Both the position numbers and the translations under genes were made by a program. The notes below the pieces were generated by a model, which saw nothing but the letters and a program-made list of their open reading frames with translations, searched no databases and was not told where the DNA came from. A DNA stretch of 50,417 nt from Rhodospirillales bacterium (lineage in GTDB: Bacteria > Pseudomonadota > Alphaproteobacteria > ATCC43930 > CGMCC-115725): the NCBI GenBank assembly GCA_019689675.1, contig JADGGZ010000003.1, positions 1 through 50,417 on the forward strand, read 5' to 3'. This document shows positions 37,638 to 48,652 of the stretch, one piece after another. The number at the start of each line of letters is the position of its first letter. The first letter of the stretch is position 1.

Positions 37638-38219
37638 ATGCCGCAGATTCCGCTCGAGATCGCGTTCCACAACTGCTCCCCCTCCGAAGCCGTCGAGGCG
37701 GCAATTCACGAGCGTGTGAGCAAGCTCGAGCGGATATACGATCGTCTGACGAGCTGCCGCGTTTCCGTCGAGGCGCTCCACCAACAGCATCGGAACGGCA
37801 ACGTTTACGAGGTTCATATCGACATGCTGGTCCCGGGCGGCCAGCTCGTGGTGAGCCGGGCGCCGCACAAGCCGAAAGAGCGCTATGCCAGCCCCGACGT
37901 CTACACGAGCATCCGCGACGCATTCGACGCCGCCGAGCGGCAGCTCATCGACTACAAGCAGCAGATCCGCGGCGAGGTGAAGACGAGCCCCGAGCAGAAT
38001 CTCTTCCATGGCCAGATCGCCGAGATCGACCCGAACGGCGAATTCGGTTTCATCCTGACTGGGGAGGGGACCCAGCTCTATTTCCACCGTAACGCGCTGC
38101 TGGAAGGCGAATGGGAGAAGCTCGCGCGCGGCACGGAGGTCCGCTACGTGCCGAAGGACGGCGATACCGGCCCCACCGCGGCCAAGGTGTGGCTCGTCTC
38201 CGAGCCGCCGTCCGAGTGA
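37638..38219 (+). CDS. HPF/RaiA ribosome-associated domain fused to a cold-shock domain
   Basis: The 193-residue protein joins a hibernation-factor domain (residues 1-105, with IPLEIAFHNCSPSE and YEVHIDMLVPGGQLVVSR) to a cold-shock OB domain (about 118-188). RNP-like motifs GEFGFIL and LYFHRNAL are intact. The first part would bind the 30S decoding centre, the second RNA. An almost perfect anti-Shine-Dalgarno match, AAAGGAGGTGA (37624-37634), precedes the ATG. A role in translation shut-down under stress is inferred. Confidence 0.9.
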   Translation: MPQIPLEIAFHNCSPSEAVEAAIHERVSKLERIYDRLTSCRVSVEALHQQHRNGNVYEVHIDMLVPGGQLVVSRAPHKPKERYASPDVYTSIRDAFDAAERQLIDYKQQIRGEVKTSPEQNLFHGQIAEIDPNGEFGFILTGEGTQLYFHRNALLEGEWEKLARGTEVRYVPKDGDTGPTAAKVWLVSEPPSE

Positions 38220-41281: not shown

Positions 41282-41974
41282 ATGCCTCAGAATGCTCCCT
41301 CGCCGGAGACTGTCCGTCTCATCGCCCGCATCCTTCGCGTCAGACCCACGCTTCAGAGCGAGGTTCCCGATCTCATAGGCTCGGTACATCGGGCGGTAGC
41401 CGGCTTGACCGCCGGGTTGGCGGTTGCCACGCGCATCGATGCGACGGACGAGAAGGTGACCGCCGCCGAAGCGCCAGTGCGCCGAGCACGCCGCTCGCGG
41501 ACGCGGACTGTGTTTGCGGCCGCCGCCGCACCGCAGCCGGTGGCCTCCGCGCCGCGCCTCATGCGGCGCGCCGAGGTGGCGGGGCCGGTGAGAGCCCCCG
41601 AAAGCAGTCCGCCGCGGACCCGTACCGGACTTCGCGGCATCGTCAAATGGTACGATCCGAAGGGCCGCGTCGGCGCGCTGCGCCTGCCCGGCCACGACGA
41701 TGTCGCCGTCGATGCCAACGCGCTCGAGCGCGCCGGCGTACCACGGCTTTTCAAAGGCCAGGAGATCGAGGCAAGCGTGGTGATCGAGCCCGACGGCGCG
41801 ACCCGGCTCCTCGCCGTCTCGCTGCCCGGCCGGCCCGAGACCGAGCCGCTCGGCGCGACCGGTCCGACGCGCCGGCAGCAGAAACCCGTCGTAATCGAGA
41901 TGAAGCGCGACGCGATGCGGCGCGTCGGCGCGCGGCTCGAAGCAGAGCATATCCTCGGCGGCGGTCGGCGATAG
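41282..41974 (+). CDS. MucR-like N-terminus fused to a degenerate cold-shock domain
   Basis: Residues 1-45 of this 230-residue protein (PSPETVRLIARILRVRP then LQSEVPDLIGSVHRAVAGL) resemble the N-terminal oligomerisation part of Ros/MucR regulators. The zinc finger that should follow is absent. A basic, Ala-rich linker leads to a cold-shock-like OB fold (about 118-175, GIVKWYDPKGRVGALRLPG). There the aromatic RNP residues are lost: KGRVGAL stands for the usual KGFGFI, and VAVD for VFVH. An EcfG-type promoter lies upstream. DNA or RNA binding in stress is inferred. Confidence 0.7.
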   Translation: MPQNAPSPETVRLIARILRVRPTLQSEVPDLIGSVHRAVAGLTAGLAVATRIDATDEKVTAAEAPVRRARRSRTRTVFAAAAAPQPVASAPRLMRRAEVAGPVRAPESSPPRTRTGLRGIVKWYDPKGRVGALRLPGHDDVAVDANALERAGVPRLFKGQEIEASVVIEPDGATRLLAVSLPGRPETEPLGATGPTRRQQKPVVIEMKRDAMRRVGARLEAEHILGGGRR

Positions 41975-42703
41975 TCAGTCACGCCAGGCGACGATGTCGA
42001 CGTGGCCGACGACGAGGCGCAAGCGCCCCGTGTCGGCTTGCCGGCATCGGCGCTCTTTCCACCCTTGGCCGCAGGGCGCGGCAGCGGCGAAGCTTTCGAT
42101 CATCGCGGCGAGCATGGGCTTGTCGCGTCCGTCGAGGACCCAGTCGCATTGTGCCGTGGCAAGGCGATAGCCGGCCTCGCGCAGAAGATTTTCCAGATAC
42201 TTCGGGGCCGCAGGACCGAGCGCCGGGCCGAACCCCTTGTCGCGACGTTGGTCGGCGGCAAAGGCAGCGAGGACTGCGCCGTCCTCAGCATCGCCGGGCG
42301 TGAAGCGGACCCGGCCGTCCACCGATAGGGCGGCAAGCAGGGGACGGCCGGCGAGCCATTTCACAAAGCGCTCGAGCCATGTCTTCGAGACGAGATCCAG
42401 AAAGGCGCTGCACGTCGCGCCATCGATCGCGTCAAGCGTCTCGAGGCCGGTCGAAAGGTCGACGAGCCGCGCATCCGGCACGCCGTCGATGAGCACGGAA
42501 TCATTGTCGACGAGGATCCAGCTCGTCGAAGACGGAAGGCGTGGCGCGAGCCAATCGCGATTGGCTCCCGCCCCGGCGGCGAGATCGAGTATGCGCGCAC
42601 GGGGCGGCAGCGCATCCGCGAAATGGCGCACGAGGGCGGCGCTCCTGGCGCGCGCATCGTAGGGCGCCCTGAGCTCCAGCCATTCGCGCGAGAAGCCGCT
42701 CAC
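41975..42703 (-). CDS. Class I SAM-dependent methyltransferase
   Basis: The 242-residue protein has the SAM motif ILDLAAGAGANRDWL (about 38-52), the acidic motif WILVDND and a later LDLVSKTWLERFV segment. It is the last gene of the five-gene minus-strand operon and overlaps the glycosyltransferase stop (GTGA start). The acceptor is unknown; from context it may methylate the pathway's pyrimidine/pterin or sugar product. Confidence 0.82.
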   Translation of the reverse strand: MSGFSREWLELRAPYDARARSAALVRHFADALPPRARILDLAAGAGANRDWLAPRLPSSTSWILVDNDSVLIDGVPDARLVDLSTGLETLDAIDGATCSAFLDLVSKTWLERFVKWLAGRPLLAALSVDGRVRFTPGDAEDGAVLAAFAADQRRDKGFGPALGPAAPKYLENLLREAGYRLATAQCDWVLDGRDKPMLAAMIESFAAAAPCGQGWKERRCRQADTGRLRLVVGHVDIVAWRD

Positions 42704-43737
42704 CTCGCGAGGCGGTCGAAAGCCGCCGCCCAGCCGGCGATCGCCTCCGGCCAGCTCGGAAGGGTTGCAGCATGGGAAGCGGCGCCCAGAGCGAGCTTCG
42801 CGCGAAGCGCCTCATCGACGATGATCTCGCGCAGGGCTTCGGCAAGCGCCGCGGCGTCGCCGGCGGGCACGAGCAGTCCCGCCTCGGCCGGAACAGTCTC
42901 CGGAATCGCTCCGGCACGCGTCGCCACGATCGGAAGGCCCCAGGCCATCGCCTCGGCAAACGCCATGCCGTATCCCTCGTGATAGGAGGGGAGAACGAAG
43001 ACGTCGGCCTCGCTGTAGACATCGCCGAGGCTGCCGGGCGGCCGCTCCCCGGCGAGTGCGACGCGATCCTGGATGCCGGATTGCGCGATTCGTCGCCGCA
43101 CCGACTCGGTTGTCGCCGGATCGCGGTCGAGACTTCCGATCAGCGTCAGGCGCCAATCGAGATCGAGCAGCCGCGCCAGTGCGTCGAGAAGCACGAGATG
43201 CCCTTTCCGCGGGGTGAGGGTCGCAACGCAGAGGAGCCGCAAGGGCCCTCGATGGCGGCGCTCCGGCACGCGTTCCGGACGGTCGACGCCTGGCGGCGCG
43301 ATCTCGACCTTCCGGACGCCGTAGGCGGTCACTTCCGCGGCGGTGCGCGGCGAGGGACAAATGACGCCGGCGAATGACGGCAGGAGCTTGCGCTCGAGCG
43401 CCGCATAACGCCGCGCCTCTTCCGCGCTGATTCCGGTTTCGAGCGCGAGCGGATGATGGATGAAAGCGACGAGACGGAGCCTTTCCGCCGCACGCGGCAG
43501 GAACGGCCCGAAAGCGGCGAGAGCAAGCCCGTCGGCGACCGCTCGGGCGCCGCGCGGGAGTCGCGCGAGAACGGCTCCGAGAGAATCGCAGGCCCGATCG
43601 TCGGCGTCGGGAAACCGCCCAGGCAGCTCGATGACCTCGACGTCTCGCCCCATCGCGCGGAGTCCCTCGACAACACGCCGGTCGAAGAGATAGCCGCCGG
43701 TAATCTGGTCGAGCGGCCCCGGAACGATGAAATGCAT
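42700..43737 (-). CDS. GT4-family glycosyltransferase
   Basis: The 345-residue protein has the two-domain GT-B layout. The N-terminal motif is PLDQITGGYLFDRRVVEGL and the second domain opens with LLCVATLTPRKGH. The retaining E-x7-E motif is in YHEGYGMAFAEAMAWGLPIV. It uses a nucleotide-sugar donor to glycosylate an unknown acceptor. The ATG at 43737 shares one base with the stop of the PTPS-like gene. Confidence 0.92.
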   Translation of the reverse strand: MHFIVPGPLDQITGGYLFDRRVVEGLRAMGRDVEVIELPGRFPDADDRACDSLGAVLARLPRGARAVADGLALAAFGPFLPRAAERLRLVAFIHHPLALETGISAEEARRYAALERKLLPSFAGVICPSPRTAAEVTAYGVRKVEIAPPGVDRPERVPERRHRGPLRLLCVATLTPRKGHLVLLDALARLLDLDWRLTLIGSLDRDPATTESVRRRIAQSGIQDRVALAGERPPGSLGDVYSEADVFVLPSYHEGYGMAFAEAMAWGLPIVATRAGAIPETVPAEAGLLVPAGDAAALAEALREIIVDEALRAKLALGAASHAATLPSWPEAIAGWAAAFDRLAR

Positions 43738-44141
43738 CACTCGAGCGGCCCTTCGAATGCCGCCCAGGCCTGCGGCGACTCGTGCAGGACGACACGGAGC
43801 CCCTCGAGCGCGCCTTTCGTGCCGGGGCCGAGGGCGCCTTCTCGCACTTTCGCCGCAAGGCGGCGCCAGATCTCCCCGGCGAGAAACTCCGTCGTGGTGT
43901 TCTGCCCCCGGAAGGCGGGTACCTCGTCCAGATTCCGGTAGTCGAAATCGGCAAGCACCGCCTCGAGCGCGGCGCCTGCGCGGCCGATGTCGCAGACGAG
44001 GCCGTCGCCGTCGAGCTGTGCGCGACGGAACTCGGTCTCGACCGTGTACGTCGCGCCGTGGAGCCGTTGCGCCGGCCCGAACACCTCGCCGACGAAGCTG
44101 TGCGCGATCATGAAATGACGGCGGACGGCGACGGAATACAT
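43737..44141 (-). CDS. 6-pyruvoyltetrahydropterin synthase/QueD family protein, divergent
   Basis: The 134-residue protein has the T-fold of PTPS/QueD, which acts on dihydroneopterin triphosphate-type substrates. His14 (MIAHSF) and His28 (LHGATY) are kept. The usual H-G-H is H-G-A, so one zinc ligand is lost, and no Cys stands at the catalytic position before the LHG motif (GPAQRLHG). The C-terminal His-Glu (LHESP) is kept. It is therefore unlikely to do the standard QueD reaction. It is coupled to the glycosyltransferase gene. Confidence 0.85.
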   Translation of the reverse strand: MYSVAVRRHFMIAHSFVGEVFGPAQRLHGATYTVETEFRRAQLDGDGLVCDIGRAGAALEAVLADFDYRNLDEVPAFRGQNTTTEFLAGEIWRRLAAKVREGALGPGTKGALEGLRVVLHESPQAWAAFEGPLE

Positions 44142-44170
44142 GCGAGCGCGGCTCCTCTATCGAAACGTTC

Positions 44171-45139
44171 CTATACGTAGCGCACGAGATGGCAGAGCGT
44201 GCCATCGGGCGCCTCCGCAAGACGTTGCATCGTCGCCGGCAGATCCTCGAAGCTGCCTTCGCTCGTGAGCAGGCGATCGAAGACGGGATCGCTGAGGAGA
44301 CGCAAAGCGAACGCGAGGCGGCGGGCCCGGGACCAGCGCGCGCGGCGGTCGGCCGGCACGTGCCCGACCTGAGACGCACGGAGAACGAGCCGCTGCGCGT
44401 GGAAGGCTTCGCCGAGCGGCGCGGCGACGGGGCGATCGCCGTACCAGGAGAGTTCGAGCACGGTCGCCTCGAACCCGGCGAGGCGAAGCGCGCTCGCGAG
44501 GCCTTCCGGAGTGCCGCTCGCGTGGATGACGAGATCGGCGCCGGGGGAGGCCGCCTCCGGAAGCGCGAAGCGGCAGCCGAGCGCGGCGGCGATGGCGGAA
44601 CGTCCCGGATCGACGTCGACGAGCTCGACCTCGGCTCCCGGGATCCGCGCCGCGAGGCCGGCGACGAGCGATCCCACCGTTCCGGCGCCGACCACGGCGA
44701 TGCGGTCGCCGGCCGTCGGACGCGCGTCCCAGAGGGCGTTGACCGCCGTTTCCATGTTGGCAGCGAGCGCCGCCCGCCCATCCGGCACGTCGTCCGGAAT
44801 GGAATGCAGCGCGTCGACCGGGACCACGTACCGGTCCTGATGGGGGTAGAGGGCGAAGACGCGCCGGCCGAGAAGGCCGGGCGGGCCGCTCTCGACGATG
44901 CCGACCGACGCGTAACCGTACTTGACGGGCGCCGGAAAGCGCCCCTCCTGGAAGGGCGCGCGCATGGCCTCGCGCTGGCTCGGCGGAACGCGGCCTTGGA
45001 AAACCAGCGCCTCGGTGCCGCGGCTGACGCCGCTCACGACGGCGCGGACCAGCGCTTCGCCATCCTCGGGCGGCCGCAGTATTTCCTCGCGCAGCTCGCC
45101 CTTTCCCGGGGCCGCGACCCAGAAGGCGCGCGCCCTCAC
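44171..45139 (-). CDS. Medium-chain dehydrogenase/reductase family protein
   Basis: The 322-residue protein has a GroES-like part ([14 protein letters not shown], then [18 protein letters not shown]) and a Rossmann domain with [18 protein letters not shown]. The four-Cys structural zinc lobe is absent. It would be an NAD(P)H-dependent oxidoreductase. I prefer the GTG at 45139, which overlaps the RibD-like stop, over a GTG at 45151. Its operon partners point to a sugar- or pterin-linked alcohol or ketone. Confidence 0.85.
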
Positions 45140-45936
45140 CGGAAGACGCACTCGACGAGGAGATCGCGCCCGAGCTCGATCCGCCGCATCTCCGGCCGGA
45201 GCCCGCGCGAAGGGTCGGAGATTTCCGGCATCGCGAGGCTCGGCCGCCCGGAGCCGAGGAGAACGGGAGCGATCGCGAGCTGGAGCCGGTCGAGCGCATT
45301 CTCGGCGAGAAAGCGCGATACGGTGACGCCGCCGCCTTCGACGAAAAGCCAGGCGAGATTCCGTCGGCGAAGGACCGCGAGGATAGCGCCGATCGGGATG
45401 CGCTTCTCGACCCGCGGCAGCTCGATCCGCTCGGCGGGATGAAACGGCCGGCGCGGAGCGTCATTTGCGACGATATGGAGCGCGCCCGGCTTGCCGTCGA
45501 ACACCCGGTGATCGCGCGAGAGCCGCGCGTCCGCGTCGATGACGACGCGGATCGGGCCCTCCCCGGGACACCGCCGGACGGTGAGGAGAGGATCGTCCGC
45601 CGCAACCGTTCCCGCGCCGACCACGACGGCATCGGCGAGCGCCCGCATCCGATGCGTATGAAGGAGGTCCTCTTCGCCCGTGATCCATTGCGAGGCGCCG
45701 GAGGCCGTGGCAATGCGCCCATCGAGGCTCTGCCCCAAATGAGCGACGACGAGGGTGCGATGCTCGGCGAAATGCCGCAGAAGCGGCAGGTAGAGCTCGG
45801 CGAGGTCCCCGCCGACCGCAGGAAGGGGAGGGGCGGCCCAGCGGCGGACGGCGGCACGCCAGGCGAGAATCGCTTCCCAGCCCGCACCCTCCGCCCCGGC
45901 GGATGCGGGGCTTCCAGTCGTCTCGATCGCGCGCAT
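45136..45936 (-). CDS. RibD C-terminal (reductase) domain protein
   Basis: The 266-residue protein has an N-terminal 60-residue segment of unknown type, then a DHFR-like RibD reductase domain. It contains [53 protein letters not shown] and [11 protein letters not shown]. The deaminase half of RibD is absent. Such enzymes reduce the ribosyl side chain of the GTP cyclohydrolase II product to ribityl. The ATG at 45936 is 37 bases from the divergent phosphatidyltransferase start. It is the first gene of the minus-strand operon. Confidence 0.88.
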
Positions 45937-45973
45937 GCCGCCTAGCAACGCCCCATCCTACCATTCTGCTCAG

Positions 45974-46657
45974 ATGGAGACGCTTCGGCGCCGGACCCTC
46001 TTCCCGCTCGGCCTAGTAACGGTCGGCCTCGCCCTCGTCGTGGCGACCTATGGCGGCTCTGCGCCGCTCGCCTTTTGCGTGTTCGCCTTCGTCGCCGCTG
46101 CCGTCTGGCGCGCCCTGCCGGCTCACGGCCACCCGCGGTTCGGGCCCGCCAATGCGGTGACGATGCTGCGCGCCGCGATTGCGGCGGCTCTCGCGGGGCT
46201 CGTCCTCGCCGAGGAGATCCCGGTGGGGGAGGCGGCGCTCGCCGCCGCCGCGGCCCTGGCGCTCGACGGCATCGACGGGCCGCTCGCGCGCCGGACGAAG
46301 CTTGCGAGCGATTTCGGCGCCCGGTTCGACATGGAGGTCGACGCCCTCCTCGTTCTCGTCCTCTCGGCCCTCGTCGCCGCCTCGGGCAGGGTCGGGTACT
46401 GGGTCGTGGCGCTCGGGCTCTTGCGCTATCTCTGGGTGGCTGCGGGCCGCCTCTGGCCTGCGCTCGCCCGACCGCTCGCGCCGAGCCGGCGCCGACGCGC
46501 CATCTGCGCCTTCACGATCGGAGCGCTGGTCGCAGCGCTCGCCGGCCCCGCATGGCTGGCATCGCCGGTCTGTGCGGCCGCGCTCATATCGCTTATCTAT
46601 TCGTTCGGGCTCGATCTCCTCCGGGTGATGCAGCCCGGGAGAGAGTTGCCAAGCTGA
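45974..46657 (+). CDS. CDP-alcohol phosphatidyltransferase family membrane protein
   Basis: The 227-residue protein has about six helices and the catalytic metal motif D-G-x2-A-R-x8-G-x3-D-x3-D, seen as LDGIDGPLARRTKL then GARFDMEVDA. Members transfer the phosphatidyl group from CDP-diacylglycerol to an alcohol, or phosphoalcohol to lipid. Its divergent start is 37 bases from the RibD-like gene, and its stop overlaps the ribA-like start. The alcohol is unknown; a ribityl compound is one guess. Confidence 0.9.
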   Translation: METLRRRTLFPLGLVTVGLALVVATYGGSAPLAFCVFAFVAAAVWRALPAHGHPRFGPANAVTMLRAAIAAALAGLVLAEEIPVGEAALAAAAALALDGIDGPLARRTKLASDFGARFDMEVDALLVLVLSALVAASGRVGYWVVALGLLRYLWVAAGRLWPALARPLAPSRRRRAICAFTIGALVAALAGPAWLASPVCAAALISLIYSFGLDLLRVMQPGRELPS

Positions 46658-47793
46658 TGCAAGGCTTGAACCGCATTTCCGCCGTCACGGCACCGCCGGC
46701 CGCGCTCATCGACATCGATCGCGCGATCACCGATCTGCGCCGTGGAGGGGTGGTCGCGCTCCGCGACGAAAAGCGCGCCTTCTTGGCCGAAGCGGCAGAG
46801 GCGATCACGGCCGAGAGCCTCGCCCGCCTCGCCTCGGCCGCGCGCGAGCGTCCCTCCCTGATCCTCACACGCCGCCGCGCCGCCGCGCTTCGTCTCGCCG
46901 GCCCGCCGCGCGGTCCCGCCGGCGCGATGCGGGTCGCTCTCCCGCCGGACGTCACCGCCGCCGAGCTGCGCGATCTTGCCGACCCGCAGGCGATCTCGGC
47001 CGTGACCGAGGGGCGTTTCACCGCCGTCGCGGTCGAGCCGCGCGGCGCCGAAGCCGCCGCGGTCGATCTCGCCAAGCTGGCCCGGCTTCTTCCGGCGGCT
47101 GTCGTCGTCGCCGTCGATCCCGCCGCTCTCGCCGGGGCGGCGGCGCGCCACCATGCGCTCGTCCTGGAGGCCGGGCATGTCTTCGCCTATCAGGCGACCG
47201 TCGCCCGCTCGCTCGTCCGCGTCGCCGAGGCGAAGGTGCCACTCGCCGATGCCGAAAGGACCCGGATCATCGCCTTCCGCCCGAGCGACGGGGGGATCGA
47301 GCATCTCGCCATCGTGATCGGCGACCCGCCCTCCGATCGGCCGGTTCTCGCGCGGATCCATTCCGAATGCTTCACAGGGGATCTTCTCGGTTCGCTGCGC
47401 TGCGACTGCGGCGACCAGCTCCGTGGAGCGATCCGCGAGATCGCGGCCGCGGGCGGGGGAGTCCTCCTCTACCTCGCCCAGGAGGGGCGGGGGATCGGCC
47501 TCGTCAACAAGCTCCGCGCCTATCAGCTCCAGGATGCGGGCTACGACACCATCGACGCCAACGAGCAGCTCGGCTTCGACGCTGACGAGCGCGTGTATCT
47601 TCCGGCGGCGGCCATGCTGCGTCAGCTCGGCTTCGGCTGCGTGCGGCTCCTGACCAACAATCCGGAAAAGGTCTCGGCGCTCCAGCGCTGCGGGATCGAG
47701 GTCGCCGAGCGCGTCCCGCACGTCTTCCCCGCCAACGGCCACAACGAGCGCTATCTCCGCACCAAGGCGACCCGAAGCGGCCATCTGCTCTGA
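46657..47793 (+). CDS. ribA: GTP cyclohydrolase II with a degenerate RibB-like N-terminus
   Basis: The C-terminal 200 residues are a full GTP cyclohydrolase II. They include the zinc Cys cluster SECFTGDLLGSLRCDCGDQL and the active-site run QEGRGIGLVNKLRAYQLQDA. It converts GTP to the 2,5-diamino-pyrimidinone riboside phosphate. The N-terminal 170 residues resemble a DHBP synthase fold that has lost its acidic active loop (RDEKRAFLAE in place of DDEDRENEGD). It therefore probably does one reaction only. It shares one base with the preceding stop. Confidence 0.9.
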   Translation: MQGLNRISAVTAPPAALIDIDRAITDLRRGGVVALRDEKRAFLAEAAEAITAESLARLASAARERPSLILTRRRAAALRLAGPPRGPAGAMRVALPPDVTAAELRDLADPQAISAVTEGRFTAVAVEPRGAEAAAVDLAKLARLLPAAVVVAVDPAALAGAAARHHALVLEAGHVFAYQATVARSLVRVAEAKVPLADAERTRIIAFRPSDGGIEHLAIVIGDPPSDRPVLARIHSECFTGDLLGSLRCDCGDQLRGAIREIAAAGGGVLLYLAQEGRGIGLVNKLRAYQLQDAGYDTIDANEQLGFDADERVYLPAAAMLRQLGFGCVRLLTNNPEKVSALQRCGIEVAERVPHVFPANGHNERYLRTKATRSGHLL

Positions 47794-47893
47794 TCTGCCG
47801 GGCAGGATTTGCCGGGTCGTCCCGGTCAGTCCACGGCCGCCGAGGAATCCGCACGAAAACCCTATGGCATGATGCTTGCGTGATCGGCGCCAG

Positions 47894-48652
47894 ATGGACC
47901 CGATCACGCCGACCCTTCCTTCGCCCGACGCACCCCGCATGCCGGCCGGCACCGGACCGGTGCGGCTCTGGCAGGATGAGGAGTTTTCGTTCGGCGACAT
48001 TCTCGACGCGATCAATCCGCTTCAGCACCTGCCCGTGATCGGGACGCTCTATCGCGCGATCACCGGCGACAAGATCGGGCCGGTGCCACGTCTCGTCGGC
48101 GACCTCGTCTTCGGCGGACCGCTCGGCTTCGTCAGCGCCATAATCGCGGTCGGCGTCGAGAACGAGACGGGCAAGGATCCGGGCGAGCATCTTCTCGCGT
48201 GGGCCGGCAACCTCTTCTCCGACCCGGCCTCTTCCGGACCGGTTTACGCGGAGGCGAAGCCGGAGGCCGCGCCAAGCATCTCGGGCCGCCCCGCCGAACG
48301 GGTCGAGGCGCCCTCGGAAAGGGTGGCGCTCGCAGAGCCGCGGCCGCCCGCCGCGGCCGGCTCAAAACCGGCAGCGCCGGGCCCGAAGGATGCCGCCGCC
48401 ATCCCGCTTTCGCGGCTCGGTGTCGACGTCAAGCCCGACCACCCGCCGATGCCGCTTGTCCGCACGGGCGGTTCTCTGCCCGTCAGCCAGACCGCCTACG
48501 TGCCGCTCCAGAGCGCCACGGTCGTCCCGCGGCCGGCGGTCTTCGCCGCCCGAGCGGAACCCGTAGACGTGCCGCGGCAGATGATGGAAGCTCTCGACAA
48601 GTACGCCAGGATGCAAACGGCGCGCGGCAGCCGCGTCGATCTCGAGCATTGA
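47894..48652 (+). CDS. Conserved-type hypothetical protein with a glycine-rich helical core
   Basis: The 252-residue protein has a core (about 33-105) with SFGDILDAINPLQHLPVIG, TLYRAITGDKIGP, LVFGGPLGFVSAI and ENETGKDPGEHLL. It looks like a membrane-associated or amphipathic hairpin region. The rest is Pro/Ala-rich and low in complexity. No enzyme motif is recognised. The ATG at 47894 is preferred over TTG at 47876. It overlaps the L,D-transpeptidase start by 4 bases. Confidence 0.75.
   Translation: MDPITPTLPSPDAPRMPAGTGPVRLWQDEEFSFGDILDAINPLQHLPVIGTLYRAITGDKIGPVPRLVGDLVFGGPLGFVSAIIAVGVENETGKDPGEHLLAWAGNLFSDPASSGPVYAEAKPEAAPSISGRPAERVEAPSERVALAEPRPPAAAGSKPAAPGPKDAAAIPLSRLGVDVKPDHPPMPLVRTGGSLPVSQTAYVPLQSATVVPRPAVFAARAEPVDVPRQMMEALDKYARMQTARGSRVDLEH

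Follow-up and report, generated by a model that had tools for sequence, protein, structure and literature searches.

What compound might seven divergently arranged genes make when they join an enzyme of GTP breakdown to a pterin-synthase fold, a dehydrogenase, a glycosyltransferase and a methyltransferase? The question is raised by positions 41975-47793 of a contig from a Rhodospirillales bacterium (GenBank assembly GCA_019689675.1, contig JADGGZ010000003.1), of which a stretch of 50,417 nucleotides, here called the window, was analysed. The original prediction, made from the letters alone, had assigned these genes to a pterin- or pyrimidine-derived compound that is glycosylated, methylated and possibly joined to a lipid. 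We propose, with a probability of about 0.5, that the window holds, in full, a cluster found in many bacteria for a separate branch from GTP, in which 2,5-diamino-6-ribosylamino-4(3H)-pyrimidinone 5'-phosphate (DARP) would be reduced to its ribityl form, oxidized to a ketone, closed to a pterin ring and then decorated. Beyond DARP, we infer every reaction, including the specificity of the dehydrogenase, as well as the product.

Gene content and layout

Each of the seven genes was confirmed at the stated place as an open reading frame of the type claimed for it, five on the minus strand and two on the plus strand:

41975-42703, minus strand: class I S-adenosylmethionine (SAM)-dependent methyltransferase (MT), GTG start; cluster-wide profile and predicted model
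42700-43737, minus strand: family 4 glycosyltransferase (GT4); Pfam GT4 4.1e-33, EX7E motif EGYGMAFAE
43737-44141, minus strand: PTPS-fold protein of the SCO6650 type; Pfam PTPS 1.5e-25, match to structure 3d7j
44171-45151, minus strand: medium-chain dehydrogenase (MDR); fold of the predicted model, BchC match
45136-45948, minus strand: RibD_C reductase lacking the deaminase domain, probably starting at ATG 45936; RibD_C 1.1e-37
45937-45973, no strand: divergent gap of 37 bases, given the inner ATG starts; read from the sequence
45935-46657, plus strand: CDP-alcohol phosphotransferase (CDPAP), possible start ATG 45974; CDP-OH_P_transf 1.8e-15
46657-47793, plus strand: GTP cyclohydrolase II (GCH II) with a degenerate RibB-like N-terminal half; GTP_cyclohydro2 4.3e-60

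The tight coupling of the two operons is evident from their overlapping gene ends, which share 1 base in the GT4/PTPS and CDPAP/GCH II pairs, 4 bases in MT/GT4 and 16 bases in MDR/RibD_C. The 37-base gap is correct with the RibD_C start at ATG 45936 and the CDPAP start at ATG 45974; the upstream start codons would make both genes overlap and leave no gap. The cluster has a GC content of 69-74%, much like that of its flanks, so that a recent foreign origin in this genome is not supported.

Conservation across genomes

When 84,980 species genomes were searched for the MDR protein, 380 relatives were obtained, and the best 80 of these 380 loci were inspected. They belong to Alpha-, Beta- and Gammaproteobacteria, Acidobacteriota, Gemmatimonadota and Actinomycetota, and in nearly all of them the MDR, PTPS, GT4 and MT genes are consecutive and accompanied by RibD_C, with CDPAP and GCH II added in many. 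The gene set was found again in about 100 loci of several phyla; in a tree, Betaproteobacteria, Rhodospirillales and one Bacteroidota bin were grouped around the window. To avoid a bias toward best matches, 398 evenly drawn Pseudomonadota genomes were also searched. MDR was detected in 27 of them (about 7%) and a PTPS of the SCO6650 type in the same 27, always adjacent, and in none of the 398 was either found without the other. This co-occurrence in 27 of 27 genomes, together with the recurrence of the gene set over phyla, shows that the arrangement is more than an accident of one genome.

Neighbours were counted in regions of 12-18 kb around MDR (within about 9 kb) in the 26 genomes besides that of the window. 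GT4 lies near MDR in 25 of the 26, MT in 24 and RibD_C in 22, followed by CDPAP (12), GCH II (11), a flippase-like gene (11), cytochrome b561 (7) and a creatininase-family gene (6). On the strength of the high counts of GT4, MT and RibD_C around the MDR-PTPS pair, the core is MDR-PTPS-GT4-MT-RibD_C rather than all seven genes, to which particular lineages have added genes for GCH II, CDPAP, creatininase, LPG_synthase_TM and sulfatase-like proteins. The expectation that the seven genes are kept together elsewhere is upheld for this core, which extends across phyla, but not for GCH II and CDPAP, which belong to only some lineages.

Outside the Pseudomonadota sample, a close PTPS homologue (>150 bits) was found in 7 of 198 Actinomycetota genomes, along with 17 weaker matches that may belong to other subfamilies. 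A related set occurs in Haloarcula, where a GTP cyclohydrolase III gene adjoins MDR, PTPS, MT and CDPAP; its proteins compare with those of the window at 36% for MDR and 29% for PTPS, and on these sequences a function shared with the bacterial cluster is plausible. Plasmids of Thiodictyon, Methylosinus, Agrobacterium, Streptomyces and Microbacterium also carry the cluster. On the mobilizable 59 kb Microbacterium plasmid pSGAir0570_2 (locus L088), a divergent form of the cluster stands beside recombinase and transposase genes, a copy that shows the cluster to be able to move between hosts. A cytochrome b561 gene adjoins RibD_C or MT in loci L084, L087, L089, L117-L119, L122, L123, L125 and L126, and its repeated presence hints at a redox or membrane role.

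Switch residue of GTP cyclohydrolase II and the creatininase gene

The GCH II of the window has the zinc cysteines and, as Tyr289, the catalytic tyrosine of RibA (Tyr105 in E. coli), whose equivalent we take to be the published switch position. Among 43 cluster GCH II proteins, this residue is Tyr in 36, Met in three, His in three and Ile in one. A creatininase-family gene is present at all seven loci without the tyrosine, and none of the 22 loci that lack the gene has a non-Tyr enzyme (one-sided Fisher approximately 0.004, calculated by hand on loci that are not independent). The Met variant matches SCO6655 of Streptomyces coelicolor, a GCH II with Met instead of Tyr at the switch that, in work by Spoonamore in 2006, reportedly stops at the formylated compound FAPy. 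GTP cyclohydrolase III, an enzyme unrelated to GCH II, also forms FAPy, and the archaeal creatininase-family enzyme ArfB deformylates it. A creatininase gene at every Tyr-less locus is what would be expected if its product were a deformylase, and it is possible that this protein makes the switch tyrosine dispensable. The switch/creatininase pattern and the GTP cyclohydrolase III of Haloarcula lend support to DARP as a genuine intermediate.

RibD_C reductase and MDR dehydrogenase

The nearest solved structure to the RibD_C protein is 6p8c (3e-28), a DARP reductase; both the domain and this best match fit that predicted activity, and the match also speaks for DARP as an intermediate. Pfam recognizes the MDR protein only faintly (ADH_zinc_N, 2.9e-4, under the cut-off), but the predicted model shows the MDR fold with confidence and resembles polyol and alcohol dehydrogenases. 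Its cysteines are at positions 193 and 320 only, with no N-terminal zinc cysteine; an invariant SRGTE occupies the place where zinc enzymes carry Cys. The protein thus falls outside the zinc-dependent MDR enzymes and probably has no catalytic zinc. The best NCBIfam match, and so the nearest named family, is BchC (46 bits, 3.7e-12, far under the 291-bit cut-off), the bacteriochlorophyllide dehydrogenase, which oxidizes a secondary alcohol to a ketone; there are no chlorophyll genes in the cluster. A precedent for the proposed succession of RibD_C, MDR and condensation is given by galactosyrin synthesis, in which a RibD-type reductase is followed by a PF00107 dehydrogenase and the resulting ketone condenses with an amine (PMC11844564).

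The PTPS-fold protein

The PTPS protein matches SCO6650 of S. coelicolor (PDB 3d7j) over its whole length (8.7e-43, 131 residues covered) and shares its HGA motif, which places it in the SCO6650 type; no other solved structure matched at 0.001. The zinc motif HGH is replaced by HGA in 80 of 81 sequences and by HGV in one. In the window protein, Ala30 replaces the third zinc histidine, the cysteine of CxxxHGH is not there, and FDY stands where QueD-type enzymes have LDH. At the catalytic histidine position there is Tyr or another residue. Glu121, at the place of the pterin anchor, is invariant in all aligned rows. SCO6650 is reported by the authors of its structure to lack zinc and the catalytic triad and yet to be able to bind pterin; the residues of the window protein agree with this account, in that zinc and catalytic positions are lost. 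With the COG0720 enzymes (QueD/PTPS-I, PTPS-II and PTPS-III) the protein has in common the T-fold and the pterin-anchoring glutamate, but it differs by its alanine in place of the third zinc histidine and by missing CxxxHGH, CxxxxxHGH and ExxHGH, the motifs that tell the queuosine, biopterin and folate types apart (PMC5041015).

The enzyme set, the cyclohydrolase/creatininase pattern and the PTPS fold with its invariant glutamate are consistent with a GTP-derived diaminopyrimidine or pterin origin, as the original prediction had supposed, and this much we regard as supported by sequence.

Proposed decoration of the product

No Pfam family covers the MT protein, but its cluster-wide profile picks up SAM methyltransferases with known structures, and its predicted model is confident (pLDDT 96). 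CDPAP has the intact DX2DGX2ARX8GX3DX3D motif of CDP-alcohol phosphotransferases, and its relatives include phosphatidyltransferases. A glycosylated and methylated product, as predicted, fits the frequency of GT4 and MT beside the core. The lipid joining is weaker: about half of the sampled Pseudomonadota loci showed no CDPAP nearby, and a lipid link is, at best, a lineage variant. Nonetheless, LPG_synthase_TM genes of the flippase-like kind turn up near the cluster in 43 of about 114 loci, and sulfatase-like ones in 23.

The pathway that we propose would run as follows. GCH II would open GTP to DARP, and the RibD_C protein, which has no deaminase, would reduce the ribosyl to a ribityl chain and leave the 2-amino group in place. 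The zinc-less MDR enzyme would then oxidize a secondary hydroxyl of the ribityl chain to a ketone, and the PTPS fold would hold the 2-amino-pyrimidinone while the 5-amino group and the ketone condense to close the pterin ring. MT would methylate and GT4 glycosylate the pterin product, and CDPAP, in the lineages that have it, would add a phospho-alcohol or join the product to a lipid.

Alternative readings

It is highly improbable that the cluster is a spare or alternative pathway to riboflavin, folate or queuosine, even though database annotations use the names RibA, RibD and QueD for its proteins. A complete ribD-ribE-ribBA-ribH operon with nusB lies on another contig of the same genome (C112), which, as predicted, sets the cluster apart from ordinary riboflavin synthesis and shows that it does not stand in for rib genes missing elsewhere. 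Two nearly equal-scoring GTP cyclohydrolase I (folE) genes (C375:14414-14947 and C260:17014-17547) can serve folate. With riboflavin and folate provided for elsewhere, the cluster would be a pathway apart from both, and it is found in only about 7% of the sampled Pseudomonadota. The cluster is no riboflavin operon by content either: the claim that ribB, ribE, ribH and the deaminase half of RibD are missing stands for RibE, RibH and the deaminase, but the N-terminal half of GCH II is a degenerate RibB-like domain (DHBP_synthase 4.3e-05, below the cut-off). A folate role is further opposed by a PTPS protein without ExxHGH, and a queuosine role by the same protein, the only COG0720 member found in the genome, lacking the CxxxHGH motif of QueD. 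Besides the riboflavin and window copies, C358 encodes a third protein of the GCH II type (C358:305-739; L096:170-1426, minus strand). It carries a GTP_CH_N domain (PF12471) and is of a kind known from alternative pyrimidine catabolism.

The remaining alternatives concern the product. A tentative, minority reading leaves the diaminopyrimidine open, with no pterin ring, so that the product would be a ribityl-pyrimidine bearing a sugar, or a phospholipid that has this as its head group, CDPAP joining CDP-diacylglycerol to ribityl phosphate. The full active-site motif and phosphatidyltransferase relatives of CDPAP speak for it, and the LPG_synthase_TM and sulfatase-like genes fit an envelope or lipid product, but the patchy occurrence of CDPAP indicates that lipid joining is not the core function, and the PTPS fold is usual for pterins. 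That the same pathway serves to make a photoprotective or antioxidant pterin glycoside, like the biopterin glucoside proposed for cyanobacteria, appears improbable: GT4 is kept almost everywhere, many hosts come from exposed or saline habitats according to record titles, and cytochrome b561 genes are repeatedly nearby, but the habitat list is uncontrolled and cyanobacteria are not among the loci. Likewise improbable is an iminosugar-type product, for which RibD_C and a PF00107 dehydrogenase would make an aza-sugar, with GCH II and PTPS as accessories. The gsn cluster for galactosyrin pairs the same two enzymes, but it starts from phosphoribosylamine, leads to an iminosugar and, as described, has no GCH II, PTPS, GT4 or methyltransferase (PMC11844564). 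Clusters of the gsn kind are marked by a RibD-type reductase, a GsnA-type dehydrogenase, the GsnC phosphatase and a transporter. The window cluster has no phosphatase or transporter among its genes and contains GCH II and PTPS instead, and MDR has no partner here as constant as the PTPS gene.

Several observations weigh against the GTP branch to a decorated pterin. GCH II and CDPAP lie near the core in the minority of sampled loci given above, and where GCH II is not nearby, DARP would have to be supplied by the riboflavin pathway. The rule that the creatininase gene stands only beside Tyr-less GCH II failed, as 14 Tyr-keeping proteins also have the gene beside them; only the one-sided rule held, and deformylation may not be the sole role of the creatininase protein. 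The Haloarcula proteins are distant and their PTPS keeps an HSH motif, so that this set may represent a different pathway.

Neighbouring genes

The gene adjoining GCH II (47876-48652, plus strand) is hypothetical, without a Pfam or NCBIfam match, and its relatives adjoin GCH II in the alphaproteobacterial cluster loci L005, L013, L062, L063 and L068. On the other side, a plus-strand gene (41282-41974) ends 1 base before the end of the convergent MT gene; its 230-residue protein, also without a Pfam or NCBIfam match, contains the stretch RGIVKWYDPKGRVGALRLPG, which resembles a degenerate cold-shock domain. Further away, 37638-38219 (plus strand) encodes an S30AE ribosome-associated domain fused with a cold-shock domain.

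Relation to known systems and significance

The cluster probably belongs to the known kind of pathway that derives a pyrimidine or pterin from GTP, and there is a smaller chance that its chemistry is new. It would follow a chemical logic like that of the archaeal start of riboflavin synthesis (GTP cyclohydrolase III, ArfB and DARP reductase), in which FAPy is formed, deformylated and reduced before deamination, but it would feed a second product, and its genes adjoin PTPS, MDR, MT and GT4. A Streptomyces plasmid locus (L085) has the order PTPS, GT4, MT, flippase-like, creatininase and GCH II, an order that would fit the locus-tag spacing of SCO6650-SCO6655 in S. coelicolor. Compared with that region, whose SCO6650 the window PTPS matches, the window carries RibD_C, its GCH II is of the Tyr type, and no creatininase gene is present. 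Text searches of the literature, with subscription journals mostly outside their reach, returned no paper describing the cluster. The original remark that no description was known accordingly stands, within those searches, for the cluster as a whole, but homologues of two of its proteins, SCO6650 and SCO6655, have been studied singly; we know of no pathway, product or purpose for either.

The cluster now gives these two proteins a context, that of a conserved pathway which about 7% of the Pseudomonadota species sampled possess and which several further phyla share. The database names 6-carboxytetrahydropterin synthase, zinc-binding alcohol dehydrogenase and RibD family are probably misleading for its genes. 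The broadest formulation, which we put forward only as a doubtful possibility, is a second, GTP cyclohydrolase I-independent route to the pterin ring in bacteria and some haloarchaea, in which GCH II or III would supply the pyrimidine, DARP reductase and a zinc-less dehydrogenase would take over from the Amadori step, and a PTPS fold without zinc would perform the closure to a methylated pterin glycoside, in some cases attached to a phospho-alcohol or lipid. The compact seven-gene cluster makes the proposed chemistry open to expression tests and, if true, this chemistry would be a new route to the pterin ring.

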